64,000 bases of DNA from positions 186,001 through 250,000 of the forward strand of contig NZ_MSSV01000002.1 of NCBI RefSeq assembly GCF_002150505.1, in the 5' to 3' direction. Below the pieces are notes generated by a model, which ran no database searches, had not been told where the DNA came from, and was given only the letters and a program-made list of their open reading frames with translations. How positions within the stretch are numbered: position 1 is the first letter of the stretch; every line of letters begins with the position of its first letter. The position numbers were made by a program, and so were the translations under genes. The stretch is from Algoriphagus ratkowskyi. Lineage in GTDB: Bacteria; Bacteroidota; Bacteroidia; Cytophagales; Cyclobacteriaceae. Shown in pieces: positions 47,937 to 53,231 of this stretch.

Positions 47937-50297
47937 TTATTCGCTTTTCAGCGAATTCACGGGATTGTCAGAAGCCGCTTTAAAAGCTTGAAATCCAACA
48001 GTCAACACCGCAATCATCATCAAAATCAATCCCGATCCTGCAAAAATCCACCAACTCAGGCTCGTCTGATAAGCATAGGTTTGCAACCAGTTGTTTGCGA
48101 AATACCAAGCCAATGGCACTGCTATAATGATCGATACTAGGATGAGCTGCACGAAGTCCTTTGATACCAATGTCAAAATGCTAAACGTGGTAGCTCCCAT
48201 AACTTTGCGAACTCCTATCTCCTTTTTTCTTTTTTCGGCAGTAAAGGCCGCCAATCCAAATAGTCCAAGGCAGGACAAGAAAATAGCCATCAAACCAAAG
48301 TATTTTGCCAGTTTGGAAACTCGCTGCTCGGAGGCATACAGCGTCTGATAATCGGCGTCCATGAAAGAATAATCCATCGCTTGAGCAGTTTGCTTGATAA
48401 AAAGAGCATCAATTGAAGCCAAGGTTTCTTGTTGATTTTGAGCACCAATTCTTACCATAATCTTTTGGGCGAAGCCCGGGTCATATTTTAAGAAAGCTGG
48501 CTTTACAGTTTCCTTAAGAGATTCGAAATTAAAATCCTTAACTACCGCGATCACCTCTTTGTCATCTCCCCAGAGGTTGACGATTTTACCTACCGGATCA
48601 TCAAAACCAATCGCACGAACTGCAGCTTCGTTCAGAATTATCTTAGATTCTTCATCTCCAAAGTCAGCAGAAAAAGCTCGGCCATCCGCCACTTCAAACC
48701 CCATAGTTTCTATCAATCCAATGTTGACCGATACATTTTCAAACTTCACCTGCTCATCAGGGTTTTTGCCTTCCCAGGTCAGTCCTATAGTAGAGCTATT
48801 CAAGCCCACCAAAGGATGACTCAGACTGGAGGCATTCTCTACGCCGGGAGACTTTCTAAGTTCTGCCAAAAAAGAATCCAACTGATTAGGATTCACTCCA
48901 GAAGCATTGATCTGAAGGAGTTGACTTTGATTGTAGCCTAGGTTTTGGTTTTGGATAAAAGACATCTGCTTGCCGATCACTGAGATTCCTATGATCAGCA
49001 AAAGGGATATTGCAAACTGAAAAACCACTAAGCCTTTTCGCGCCAGCAGTTCCCCAAAACTCCCCTTGATATTTGATTTCATCACCTGTACAGGCTTGAA
49101 CTTAGAGAGGTAAACGGCTGGGTAAATTCCAGCCAAAAAGCTTGTAAGCAGCCAAATCCCCAATAAAATCAGGATCAACTCTGGCTGAAATGACATGCTC
49201 AGCGTTTTGGATGTGACTTGATTGAAAAATGGTTGTAATATAAATGTGGCTATGATCGCAAGAACTAAAGCAAAGAATGTCAGCAACAGTGATTCGACCA
49301 TGAATTGTCCAAATAAACCTCCTCTGCTGGCTCCCATGGATTTTTTCACCCCAATCTCCTTCAATCGACTCATGGATCTAGCCGTGGTCAGATTCATAAA
49401 ATTGATGCAGGCGATGATTAAAATAAAAATTGCGATGGCTGAAAACAGCTTCACATAACTAATCCTTCCACCGATCACTTTGCCATCTTCGTAGGTACCA
49501 TATAGATAGGTATCGCCGAAGGGCTGAACAAATGCCGACACATTACTTCCCTCATCCTTGTTTTTGATAAAATCAGCGATTTGTATATTAAAAGAAGGTA
49601 TATCCGTCTCAGGACGAAGCAATAAATAGGTTGAAGCATTGAAGTTTCCCCAGTGGACACCTTCCCCAAGCATCTGCTTGAAGTAAGAAAACGATAAAAA
49701 ATAGTCAGCTTGATCCACCTCCATTGCTCCAAAATCTCGATAAACACCCGTAACCTCCACCTCATTCGCGAAGTCAAATGCCTGCCATTTTAGGGATTTC
49801 CCTAGAGCGGCAGCTGGTGAACCAAACAATTTTGTAGCCATGGTTTCAGACAAAGCCACACTATTGATTCCTGTCATTATCTGAGCTTTATTTCCTTCGA
49901 TAAAATCCACATCGAAAATATTGAAGTAGTCCTGATCTACAAATAGCCCATCCCCTGTCAGCTTTGTATCCAAATTCTCAAAATTTACTCCCTCAATAAA
50001 TGGAGAAGTCCCGGCAGATAATTCTACCTGTGGAAGCTCAACCTTCATCGCTTCCGCCATTTCACCCGGTGTAATTCCAATCGTCACTATCCCTCCGCTA
50101 TTATCGTGATTGGTCATCACTGCATATATGCGATCAATCTTTTCATGATTGCGGCTAATATTCAGCTCATCCTTCACCCACATCATGACGAGAATCACCG
50201 TGGTCAGCCCTATCGCCAAACCAAACAAGTTGATTGCGAAGATCTTTTTGAACTTCATGAAGCTGCGGAAAGCGAGGGTAAGTTGGTGGCGGAGCAT
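47937..50297 (-). CDS. FtsX/MacB-type ABC transporter permease
   Basis: The start at 50297 gives MLRHQLTLAFRSFMKFKKIFAIN and 786 residues. A Met 12 codons upstream is in frame, but those codons (KKPTTNNQQLK) are low-complexity repeat, so the inner start is preferred. The order is first helix, MacB_PCD-type domain, three helices, second periplasmic domain, three helices, with coupling motifs KEIGVKKSMGAS and KEIGVRKVMGAT. It lies 160 bases downstream of the ATPase gene on the same strand and is probably its main partner. Exported substrate unknown. Confidence 0.93.
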   Translation of the reverse strand: MLRHQLTLAFRSFMKFKKIFAINLFGLAIGLTTVILVMMWVKDELNISRNHEKIDRIYAVMTNHDNSGGIVTIGITPGEMAEAMKVELPQVELSAGTSPFIEGVNFENLDTKLTGDGLFVDQDYFNIFDVDFIEGNKAQIMTGINSVALSETMATKLFGSPAAALGKSLKWQAFDFANEVEVTGVYRDFGAMEVDQADYFLSFSYFKQMLGEGVHWGNFNASTYLLLRPETDIPSFNIQIADFIKNKDEGSNVSAFVQPFGDTYLYGTYEDGKVIGGRISYVKLFSAIAIFILIIACINFMNLTTARSMSRLKEIGVKKSMGASRGGLFGQFMVESLLLTFFALVLAIIATFILQPFFNQVTSKTLSMSFQPELILILLGIWLLTSFLAGIYPAVYLSKFKPVQVMKSNIKGSFGELLARKGLVVFQFAISLLLIIGISVIGKQMSFIQNQNLGYNQSQLLQINASGVNPNQLDSFLAELRKSPGVENASSLSHPLVGLNSSTIGLTWEGKNPDEQVKFENVSVNIGLIETMGFEVADGRAFSADFGDEESKIILNEAAVRAIGFDDPVGKIVNLWGDDKEVIAVVKDFNFESLKETVKPAFLKYDPGFAQKIMVRIGAQNQQETLASIDALFIKQTAQAMDYSFMDADYQTLYASEQRVSKLAKYFGLMAIFLSCLGLFGLAAFTAEKRKKEIGVRKVMGATTFSILTLVSKDFVQLILVSIIIAVPLAWYFANNWLQTYAYQTSLSWWIFAGSGLILMMIAVLTVGFQAFKAASDNPVNSLKSE

Positions 50298-50343
50298 TTT
50301 TAGTTGTTGGTTATTGGTTGTTGGTTTCTTCATCCGATGCTTA

Positions 50344-50425
50344 TCATTACGAGGAACGAAGCAATCTCTTTAGCATTCTGCTTCTTGTCTCGCAGTGAAG
50401 CCTATTTTCGCAGTGACGTATCTTA
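50344..50425. repeat. Interspersed repeat of the CATTGCGAGG..GAAGCAATCT family
   Basis: ATTACGAGGAACGAAGCAAT followed by CTCTT, then two partial copies (CTCGCAGTGAAGC and TTCGCAGTGACGTA). This word family recurs at about 43303, 44849, 47609 and 47677 in the window. Confidence 0.7.
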
Positions 50426-50457
50426 CTTCCGTCTTTTGTCTTCCGTCTCCGGTCTTT

Positions 50458-51153
50458 TTACACATGAAACTGCTCTCTGATATTCTCGGTCACGACTTTA
50501 CCATCGAATAAATTGATGATTCTGTGTGCATAGTTTGCATCATGAGGAGAGTGCGTTACCATCACGATGGTGGTTCCTTCGTTATTGAGTTCTTCCAAAA
50601 GACGCATTACTTCTTCGCCATTTGTAGAATCCAAGTTACCCGTAGGTTCATCGGCAAGGATCACAGAAGGCTTGGCGACGATTGCTCTAGCGATAGCGAC
50701 ACGCTGCTGCTGTCCACCAGAAAGCTGCTGCGGAAAGTGGTTTCTTCTGTGCATAATGTTCATACGTGTAAGCACTTCTTCCACTTTTTGCTTTCGTTCT
50801 TCTGTAGGAACTTTCAGGTATAGAAGTGGTAGCTCCACATTTTCAAATACAGTCAGTTCGTCGATCAGGTTAAAGCTCTGAAATACGAAGCCTATATTTC
50901 CCTTTCTAAGCGAGGAGCGCTGTCTTTCAGAGAATTTGGCAACCTCATGATCCAGGAAGTGGTATTCTCCATCATCAGGATTATCCAATAAACCGAGGAT
51001 GTTTAGCAGTGTTGATTTACCACAGCCAGATGGGCCCATGATGGCTACAAATTCACCTTTTTTGATTTCGATCTGTATGCTATCCAAAGCTGTTGTTTCT
51101 ACCTCCTCGGTAGCATACATTTTTCTGAGATTGACTGTTTTTATTACGTTCAT
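50458..51153 (-). CDS. ABC transporter ATP-binding protein (LolD/MacB type)
   Basis: A 231-residue ATPase of the MacB/LolD class. Walker A GPSGCGKS is at 40-47, then the Q loop, signature [14 protein letters not shown], Walker [10 protein letters not shown] and the H loop MVTHSPHDA. It should power the FtsX-type permeases downstream (50297 and 47571). It is the only ATPase gene of this type in the window, although four such permeases are present. Its start codon lies three bases from one arm of the inverted repeat flanking the four-helix gene. Confidence 0.96.
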
Positions 51154-51155
51154 TT

Positions 51156-51192
51156 TTTTGTGTTGGATGTCGGGTGTCGGGTGACCGATGTT
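51156..51192. repeat. 37-nt inverted repeat arm (left)
   Basis: Pairs without gaps with 51814-51850. Blocks TTTTGTGT, GATGTC and CGGGTGACCGATGTT are identical to the reverse complement of the other arm; 32 of 37 positions match. The arm starts three bases before the ATPase start codon. Confidence 0.85.
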
Positions 51193-51362
51193 GTGGGAGC
51201 CTCTGCCGCTGGTTAACTTTAATTTTTTATTGTCGGTTGACCGATGCCCGATGATATGGGAACCTCCGTCTTAGACTATATTAATTTGTTTGATGCTGGA
51301 TTTATTGCCGATTACTATCATAAGAATGATTTCAGATTAGATATTATACTCAAAATTTCCAC

Positions 51363-51731
51363 TTATATAATTTTGGATTTAAATGCTTGCATCATGTTCA
51401 TTAAATGAAATGCTTCGGCATACAGTTTATTAAATTGTTCTTGCTCAATGTATTTTCGTCTTAGCGCTTTATGAAGACAAGTGACTACTTCTGCCAGTGA
51501 CCGAATTGAATAACCCAAAAATTTCTTGTATTCTGGATTGCTTTGGGAGATAGATCCTTCAGCAATATTTAGAGCAATTGAGTCCGCAGCGCGTCTTGCC
51601 TGTGAAATCATGTTGAATAATTCATCTTTTGGAAAAGCTTTAGAGACACTAAATATATCCTCTCCAAAATCCATGGCCTTTTGCCAAATTTGAAGCTTTT
51701 CGAATTTAAAGTGCGGCGCATATTCTTCCAT
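51363..51731 (-). CDS. Four-helix bundle protein (23S rRNA intervening-sequence protein family)
   Basis: A 122-residue all-helical protein. Family motifs are FKFEKLQIWQKAMDFGEDIF at the start, FPKDELFNMISQARRAADSIALNIAEGS in the middle and KFLGYSIRSLAEVVTCLHKA. These identify the S23/IVP family of four-helix bundles, found within intervening sequences of 23S rRNA genes, as free genes, and (as bAvd) in diversity-generating retroelements. They bind nucleic acid by a basic surface. Here it sits between the adaptor and ATPase genes of an efflux operon, flanked by a 37-nt inverted repeat and a (CAA)n tract. No rRNA or reverse transcriptase gene is in the window. Confidence 0.92.
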   Translation of the reverse strand: MEEYAPHFKFEKLQIWQKAMDFGEDIFSVSKAFPKDELFNMISQARRAADSIALNIAEGSISQSNPEYKKFLGYSIRSLAEVVTCLHKALRRKYIEQEQFNKLYAEAFHLMNMMQAFKSKII

Positions 51732-51780
51732 ATTTTTTAAGTTTAAAATCAGAAATCTGAAAACATCAATCTTTAAAAAT

Positions 51781-51802
51781 CAACAACAACAACAACAACA
51801 AC
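51781..51802. repeat. (CAA)n microsatellite
   Basis: About seven consecutive CAA units lie between the four-helix gene and the right inverted-repeat arm. It is not in a coding frame and could vary in length between strains. Confidence 0.9.
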
Positions 51803-51813
51803 ATCCATCACCA

Positions 51814-51850
51814 AACATCGGTCACCCGTCATCTGACATCTGACACAAAA
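51814..51850. repeat. 37-nt inverted repeat arm (right)
   Basis: The reverse-complement partner of 51156-51192. It lies between the adaptor gene stop (51881) and the four-helix gene. In the minus-strand transcript it would be made first and could pair with the other arm, looping out about 620 bases. Confidence 0.85.
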
Positions 51851-51880
51851 CATCGGCCATCCAACATCTGTCACCCAACA

Positions 51881-53128
51881 TCATTTAAGATCCAAAATCT
51901 CATTCTTCCCGAAATTCTCATAGCCAGAGATGATCACTTTTTCACCTTCTACAAGCCCTTCCAGTACTTCGTAGAACTCAGGGTTTTTATTACCAAGTCG
52001 GATGTTTCTCTTTTCAGCATTTCCTGAAGAATTAATTACAAAAACCCAATTCCCGCCTGTGTCCTTAAAGAATCCACCTGTAGGCAAAAGCAAACTTTGC
52101 TCGCTATCACTCAACTGCAATCTAATTCTCACGCTTTGACCTCTTCTGATTCCCTGTGGACTTTCACCGGTAAAAACCATATCCACTTCAAATCTTCCGC
52201 TGGTAATCGTAGGGTAGATTTTTGAAATCTCAAGCTCATGATCGACGCCGCTTAAAGTGAACTTTCCTCGTAAACCTCTTCCAATTCTCGGTAAATACAA
52301 CTCATCGATCGGAACACGAACTTTGAATTCATCCTGCACATCGATCTGACCATATCGGGCGCCTGAATTCATGGATTGACCCACTTCTATCTGTTCCATT
52401 GCCAACTGACCTGCGATCGGTGCTTTGATCACCAGGTTATTCAGGATCTGCCCAACACCTGTTAAAGAGGCATTCATTCTGCCCTCGGACTGGCGGAGTT
52501 GGGTAAGCTGATAAGATCTCGCCATAGAATCACTCTTATAAGACTTGTAAGTCAACTCCTTCCTTTTCAAGTTGTATTCATATTGCTCTTTCACTTCTTC
52601 GAATTCACGATCAGAAACCAGCTTTTTCGTATGAAGCTCCTTAAATCTTCTGTACTGCGGCTCCAGTAAACTGATCTGATAATCTATCTCCGCCAACTGT
52701 CCCAATTGAACCAAATCATTTTGATCCAAGAAAAGACGTGTTTGACGCAGGTTATTGATCTGCTCGTAAAGCATGGTTTCGCGTTGCATTACGTCCAACT
52801 GCAAATTGGAATTGGCCATGATCAAAATCGTATCACCCACTTCTACCACTGCACCTGACTCTCGAACGATCTGAGCGACCATTCCACCTTCCACAGCATC
52901 GAGGAAAAAAGTCTGTGCTGGTTCGATCTGTCCTGACACCAATATATAATCAGTGAACTCACCTTTCGAAACAGTTGCGATACTTAAGCGATCCTTCTCT
53001 ACATTCATGGTAGATCTGTGATCTGCAAATCCTATTTGGTAAATAATTGCTGCCACAATAATGACTCCGCCAAGTATCAAAGCGATTCTTTTAGGTGTCC
53101 AGGTTTTCTTAGCTATTTTTCTATCCAT
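51881..53128 (-). CDS. Periplasmic adaptor (HlyD/MacA-type membrane fusion protein)
   Basis: A 415-residue adaptor. One N-terminal membrane helix (about 14-32, RIALILGGVIIVAAIIYQIG) is followed by a split lipoyl domain (EGGMVAQIVRESGAVVEVGD and VIKAPIAGQLAMEQIEVGQ) around a long helical hairpin, then beta-barrel and membrane-proximal domains. It would bridge an inner-membrane ABC permease to an outer-membrane channel. It is the first gene of the minus-strand efflux cluster and is divergent from the sigma-54 activator gene. No TolC-like gene is in the window. Confidence 0.93.
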   Translation of the reverse strand: MDRKIAKKTWTPKRIALILGGVIIVAAIIYQIGFADHRSTMNVEKDRLSIATVSKGEFTDYILVSGQIEPAQTFFLDAVEGGMVAQIVRESGAVVEVGDTILIMANSNLQLDVMQRETMLYEQINNLRQTRLFLDQNDLVQLGQLAEIDYQISLLEPQYRRFKELHTKKLVSDREFEEVKEQYEYNLKRKELTYKSYKSDSMARSYQLTQLRQSEGRMNASLTGVGQILNNLVIKAPIAGQLAMEQIEVGQSMNSGARYGQIDVQDEFKVRVPIDELYLPRIGRGLRGKFTLSGVDHELEISKIYPTITSGRFEVDMVFTGESPQGIRRGQSVRIRLQLSDSEQSLLLPTGGFFKDTGGNWVFVINSSGNAEKRNIRLGNKNPEFYEVLEGLVEGEKVIISGYENFGKNEILDLK

Positions 53129-53163
53129 TGTATGTAAATGCCATTTTCGGGCTATACCAATAT

Positions 53164-53179
53164 GCCAAATGGTATGCCA
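53164..53179 (-). promoter_or_regulatory. Possible sigma-54 promoter for the efflux operon
   Basis: On the minus strand TGGCATACCATTTGGC resembles the -24/-12 consensus TGGCACG-N4-TTGCW with the right overall spacing, but the -12 dinucleotide is GG rather than GC. It ends 36 bases before the adaptor start codon. The divergent gene encodes a sigma-54 activator, which raises its likelihood. Confidence 0.3.
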
Positions 53180-53231
53180 TGCAAAAAATCGCCCCTACAG
53201 CCTTGCTACCTTGTTTTAAGAAAAAACAGAA

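Follow-up and report, generated by a model that had tools for sequence, protein, structure and literature searches.

The adaptor and ATPase genes of an ABC exporter operon of the MacA/MacB or DarC/DarD type are separated, in Algoriphagus ratkowskyi, by a gene of the 23S rRNA-intervening-sequence protein family, enclosed on both sides by inverted repeats. In 23S rRNA genes, intervening sequences end in a terminal stem that is cut by RNase III. The locus, which lies in a 64,000-nucleotide stretch of the genome (hereafter, the window), hence raises the question of whether an element of the same build resides between two ordinary protein-coding genes, as had been proposed in a sequence-only reading of this DNA, and of how its arms relate to the protein that they enclose.

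Inverted-repeat comparison reproduces the repeat described in that reading: the two arms (Table 1) align without gaps over 37 nt with 32/37 matching positions (86%), contain the 15-nt identical block CGGGTGACCGATGTT and are spaced 621 nt apart. As also described, they enclose a (CAA)n tract and a single gene, the product of which matches PF05635 (2.8e-33; 114.8 bits against a curated cut-off of 33.8) and TIGR02436 (2.3e-30; 105 bits against a cut-off of 24). No Y1/HUH (RAYT) transposase was found between the arms and a search of positions 50200-53200 against Rfam returned no match. Retro-mobility by a linked reverse transcriptase was rejected, since no such gene lies near the locus: the genome has a single one, on contig C9, and the window belongs to contig C12. 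The geometry of the arms required some revision. Two bases, and not three as first stated, separate the 3' arm from the ATPase start codon. The opposite arm does lie past the adaptor stop, but it is embedded in a far longer tract of 12 heptamers running from the stop codon itself, with the first unit beginning inside the TGA (51882). On the coding strand, the units of this tract read GATGTTG, GGTGACA, GATGTTG, GATGGCC, GATGTTT, TGTGTCA, GATGTCA, GATGACG, GGTGACC, GATGTTT, GGTGATG and GATGTTG, and the arm word in the window is a tandem degenerate heptamer, GATGTYG. In the predicted RNA fold the entire junction is closed by the word tracts, at -188.5 kcal/mol against -168.4 +/- 9.1 kcal/mol for shuffled sequences; none of 20 shuffles was as stable, with a moderate z of -2.2.

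Table 1. Positions, within the window, of the exporter genes, the cassette and the neighboring word tracts.
Feature	Position	Strand	Basis or remark
5' word tract, upstream of the four-helix-bundle gene	51799..51882	-	12 consecutive degenerate heptamers; contains arm 51814-51850
Inverted-repeat arm, 5' side of cassette	51814..51850	-	inverted-repeat comparison, 86%
Inverted-repeat arm on the 3' side; a heptamer tract that stops 2 nt short of the ATPase start codon (51151-51153)	51156..51192	-	
Second word tract on the 3' side, inner to the arm; complements the 5' tract and is paired in the predicted fold	51231..51255	-	
Four-helix-bundle gene (23S rRNA-intervening-sequence protein family), 122 aa	51363..51731	-	profile matches
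(CAA)n tract between the 5' word tract and the four-helix-bundle gene	about 51780..51803	.	
Periplasmic adaptor gene (HlyD/MacA-like) of the ABC exporter	51881..53128	-	profile matches
ABC ATPase gene (DarD/LolD/MacB-like)	50458..51153	-	profile matches
MacB/FtsX-type permease gene	47937..50333	-	profile match
Solo GAAGAC-type heptamer tract directly at the ATPase stop codon, without a gene	50425..50459	-	
Solo TTGTTGG/TTATTGG heptamer tract; word resembles the arms of L004, another family gene of the same genome	50296..50330	.	

At the threshold used, 400 kb of random sequence from the genus yields about one heptamer tract per 100 kb, against three in the window. The TTGTTGG/TTATTGG tract (50296-50333) and the 5' end annotated for the permease open reading frame overlap; MKKPTTNNQQLK there reads as translated repeat, and the true permease start may therefore be further downstream. 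A recurrent palindromic element, GTCATTGCGAGGAACGAAGCAATC, is also seen in intergenic DNA of the window (50340-50420), at L272 and elsewhere, and sits in the adaptor-ATPase junction of G062, G021 and G037.

The exporter operon is present in 49 of the 72 genomes of the genus, and its adaptor-ATPase junction was taken from all 49. In 30 of these genomes the four-helix-bundle gene occupies this junction, in each case on the strand of the operon, and it is flanked by inverted word arms in 30/30 cases. Cassette-free junctions, for which a comparison of related genomes had been recommended, do exist: 15 of the 19 gene-less junctions are devoid of word arms by the score used, and the remaining 4 have a hairpin built from a further word, GATTTCG. 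Gene and arms are present or absent together, with 13 gains or losses at this junction on the host tree. The arms are built of GATGTC-like words in 9 genomes, GAAGAC-like words in 20 and intermediate words in 1, and these words vary between genomes while the paired arms of each agree. This rules out a fixed, conserved inverted repeat and corrects the initial description of the arms, which are instead tracts of degenerate heptamers with a word set by protein lineage. The tree of the four-helix-bundle gene requires a single change of word type and the adaptor plus ATPase tree 8 (shuffled-label mean of about 8), indicating that the gene and both arms act as a single exchangeable cassette and that different cassettes occupy the same place in sister species. 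In the sister pair G053/G049, for instance, adaptor and ATPase are 92-100% identical per 60-nt block, with 88% in the last, partial adaptor block, while the whole stop-to-start interval differs and the cassettes are unlike. The unit of exchange is the gene plus its arms, and the exchange could have come about either through recombination with a close relative carrying the other allele or through insertion. Within one word type, left and right arms match slightly better within a locus (19.2) than between loci (18.3), arguing against strong locus-specific selection for pairing, and pair-by-pair coevolution of the arms at individual loci is hence weak at most.

A second paralogue of the family resides at the ATPase-permease junction in many species, in either orientation and with GGAAGT-type words, a third word in this operon, and its two sub-clades differ in period (7 vs. 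8). Two cassettes with different words can thus be found within one operon, as in G025 and G067. Many species carry second-junction copies that are reversed relative to the operon, so that not every copy can depend on transcription from the host operon. Gene-less elements are also seen at this junction: short GATGTC hairpins with a tiny loop right after the ATPase stop in G059, G017, G042, G051, G062, G024, G038 and G033, and a TTGAAAAATTGGAAAATT-type word-like tract, with no family gene identified, in G040, G021, G037, G030, G065, G071, G026 and G066. The permease that follows the ATPase in the 49 operons shows between about 27% and 92% identity between species, against 78-97% for the adaptor and ATPase of the same operons, a disparity in sequence conservation that suggests permease exchange.

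The association of four-helix-bundle genes with inverted arms extends well beyond this operon. In a test comparing the left flank of each gene with its reverse-complemented right flank, in which arms were deemed significant when they beat all 100 block shuffles, significant arms were detected for 70 of 95 family genes in the genus and for 76 of 113 in other genera and phyla. This latter set spans Flavobacterium, Pedobacter, Acidobacteria, Chloroflexi, Nitrospirota, Desulfobacteraceae, Omnitrophota, Rhodanobacter and others, and includes a handful of recurring Algoriphagus loci; its distant loci were picked by similarity to this branch of the family and by a short conserved motif, so that the family as a whole is sampled unevenly. 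Only 3 of 166 ordinary short genes in 20 random 20-kb stretches show arms, none of them built of words (Fisher test against family genes, 5e-38 for the genus set and 8e-36 for other genera and phyla). Overall, 146 of 208 family members bear inverted arms of 7- or 8-nt words and 62 have no significant arms by the block-shuffle test; the arms sought around other four-helix-bundle genes, as had been suggested, are hence common, but their words differ by lineage. Among 292 arms selected on complementarity only, the best self-match lag is 7 in 240 and 8 in 45, whereas the lags of controls scatter, and the median arm length is 30 nt (10-90%: 21-42 nt). The family genes mostly sit within operons, and their orientation is strongly biased at the 72 distant loci with both neighbors readable, 63 genes being co-directional with both neighbors and 2 opposite to both. 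Cassette homes are furthermore conserved across genera. By the gene names read from translated neighbors, odhB/sucB and lpd flank the AAGTACN lineage in Algoriphagus, Indibacter and Fulvivirga, pdxJ adjoins the GTCNACA lineage and pccB the ATAGWCC lineage. The junction in the window is therefore one among many conserved intercistronic homes, and not the site of a one-off insertion, as had been envisaged. In G058 and G016, two family genes (L149 and L150) with AAGTATC-like words lie in tandem about 1.6 kb apart.

The words of the arms, and even their period, follow the lineage of the enclosed protein. Period 7 or 8 changes 6 times on the protein tree, against 19 with shuffled labels, and proteins with a similarity of at least 0.6 residing at different homes share arm words (7.37 against a permuted maximum of 6.70; 0/2000), in a comparison where kinship is not fully controlled. 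A protein of Carboxylicivirga (L160), with 65% identity to the window protein, has GAAGAC-like words at an apparent cobT-cobS junction, with a borderline arm score. The association is also seen in trans, in the density of dispersed tracts in genomes with and without the corresponding lineage: 8.3 against 0 per Mb for GAAGAC, 5.9 against 0 for GATGTC, 10.6 against 0.9 for AAGTACN, 4.5 against 0.4 for ATAGWCC and 10.9 against 2.6 for GTCNACA, many of the gene-less genomes in this census being small, incomplete MAGs. When only genomes above 3.4 Mb are considered, the differences persist for AAGTACN, GAAGAC and GATGTC (p 6e-6 to 3e-5). Holders of GAAGAC and of GATGTC are separated in trans only marginally (p 0.028). 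The informative phylogenetically independent pairs are few and nearly all agree in direction (4-6 vs. 0 at most thresholds, p 0.03-0.2), and the trans association after correction for kinship is weak.

The family genes are under purifying selection, with dN/dS values of about 0.05 among operon copies (9 pairs) and 0.15 in the AAGTACN lineage (68 pairs), and in-frame stops are seen in scattered copies. To our knowledge, the PF05635 family, which is very widespread and has solved structures, has no known function. The predicted structure of the window protein (pLDDT 95.8) aligns with 2gsc at a TM of 0.92 and also matches 2rld, each of which comprises five chains in the crystal, and the Xanthomonas protein has been described as a toroidal homopentamer (PMC4990558). 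The predicted structure also aligns with Avd of diversity-generating retroelements, at a TM of 0.77 with a weak E-value and about 7% identity. Avd has the same pentameric four-helix-bundle fold and is part of an RNA-protein complex, but the locus differs from a diversity-generating retroelement in having no reverse transcriptase. TRAP-like toroidal RNA-binding proteins are rings that bind tandem short repeats, and a similar ring-on-repeats mechanism might, by analogy, be proposed for the cassette protein, although the TRAP fold is unrelated. The cassette protein is not strongly basic (charge of +1.3, against a family median of -0.4), a point against the reading favored below.

Several known systems resemble parts of this arrangement. 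The 23S rRNA intervening sequences with an S23/IVP open reading frame of Coxiella and Leptospira feature the same protein family and have inverted repeats at their ends that close a stem around the reading frame, and that of Coxiella has a 28-bp stem with tandem GACAGAT heptamers before the reading frame (PMC4990558). The window cassette departs from them in lying in a protein-coding operon, between adaptor and ATPase genes, in the long, degenerate and lineage-specific word tracts of its arms, and in the strong conservation of its protein, whereas the Coxiella reading frame has been reported to be in decay and unlikely to be expressed. Due to its location outside 23S rRNA, the cassette is not classed as an rRNA intervening sequence, though it is built like one, and the proposed intervening-sequence-like architecture between two co-directional genes is in this sense supported. 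The cassettes are also reminiscent of REP/RAYT systems, in which dispersed short repeats are tied to one resident protein gene, a likeness with weak support once kinship is controlled; they differ from them in lacking an HUH/Y1 transposase and in consisting of tandem 7/8-mers, REPs being palindromes. The excess of heptamer repeats in bacteria has been discussed mainly in terms of slippage or quadruplex sequence. Heptamer repeats have been described as over-represented in bacteria with no known cause (PMC4692102; PMC4679880), examples being the heptameric GGGNATC simple sequence repeats of Xanthomonas and Nostoc (PMC4692102) and TAACTGA repeats (PMC4679880), and 70 inverted pairs of GGGAATC heptamers are reported for X. 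campestris. These repeats share with the cassette arms their unit length and an intergenic, dispersed distribution. The four-helix-bundle family is named in none of the passages searched in those papers; here, the repeats are the arms of four-helix-bundle genes. Two Xanthomonadales genes (L216 and L222) match X. campestris XCC0516/2gsc at 4e-38 and 1e-48 and have GGGATTC/GGGAATC arms. Among open-licence papers, which provide weak evidence on this point, none linking the PF05635 family to heptamer arms was found beyond the Coxiella remark.

Taken together, these observations make it probable that the locus is an intervening-sequence-like intercistronic cassette, in which a PF05635 gene sits between inverted, lineage-specific word tracts and the protein recognizes its own repeat. 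In the polycistronic mRNA, the arms would pair into a long stem looping out the middle cistron, which may be cut by RNase III or undergo other processing, as with 23S rRNA intervening sequences. The protein, which homology suggests to be a toroidal pentamer, would bind tandem copies of its own word and thereby stabilize, process or spread the word tracts. Binding of one unit per subunit, with a five-subunit ring meeting arms of 30 nt in median length, is an attractive conjecture. Cassette exchange would proceed by homologous recombination, within either the flanking genes or the arms, and we infer a possible effect on the balance of adaptor and ATPase. The main difficulty for a role confined to the transcript is posed by the reverse-oriented second copies, and these, together with the gene-less hairpins of the same words at the ATPase-permease junction and elsewhere, the correlation of tract abundance with gene presence and the repeated gains and losses at the adaptor-ATPase site, are the observations that favor a selfish system operating at the DNA level, akin to REP/RAYT. 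In such a system, the protein and host or other enzymes would mobilize or maintain word hairpins and the gene-less hairpins would be non-autonomous derivatives. The protein, however, has no catalytic domain, the genome's one reverse transcriptase is located on a different contig, many of the solo tracts occur singly and not as hairpins, and both the conservation of gene homes across genera and the 63:2 co-directional bias run counter to this explanation, which we consider rather unlikely.

Another proposal holds that the arms are linked passengers, that is, slippage-prone heptamer tracts inherited with the gene and subject to plain allelic recombination between species, with no functional tie between protein and word. 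Linkage alone would yield both exchange at a fixed site and the cis correlation of word and lineage, and the conservation of homes across genera and the barely locus-specific matching of arms within a word type are as expected from it. Linkage leaves unexplained, however, why inverted arms of 7/8-nt words recur at unrelated sites in unrelated lineages of many phyla, why words are shared at different homes, including that of the Carboxylicivirga protein, and why dispersed tracts are associated with the gene in trans, and it is accordingly an improbable account of the whole. That the arms are merely two of the many word tracts dispersed in the genome, flanking the gene by accident, was a concern raised together with the initial proposal, and it can be given virtually no credence: arms accompany 30/30 orthologous copies and 3/166 ordinary genes, none with words, and the density of such tracts is about one per 100 kb.

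The cassette with a protein that probably recognizes its own repeat extends the architecture of rRNA intervening sequences to ordinary operons, and it joins two loose ends, a widespread protein family with no known function and the excess of tandem heptamers across bacterial genomes, for which it provides a candidate explanation. More tentatively, and with somewhat less than even confidence, PF05635 proteins may constitute a large, unrecognized set of protein-repeat pairs, each lineage reading its own 7- or 8-nt word in arms and dispersed tracts. Such a reading predicts a readable protein-to-word code, and it would account for a large part of the heptamer repeats in bacteria and give the family a function.
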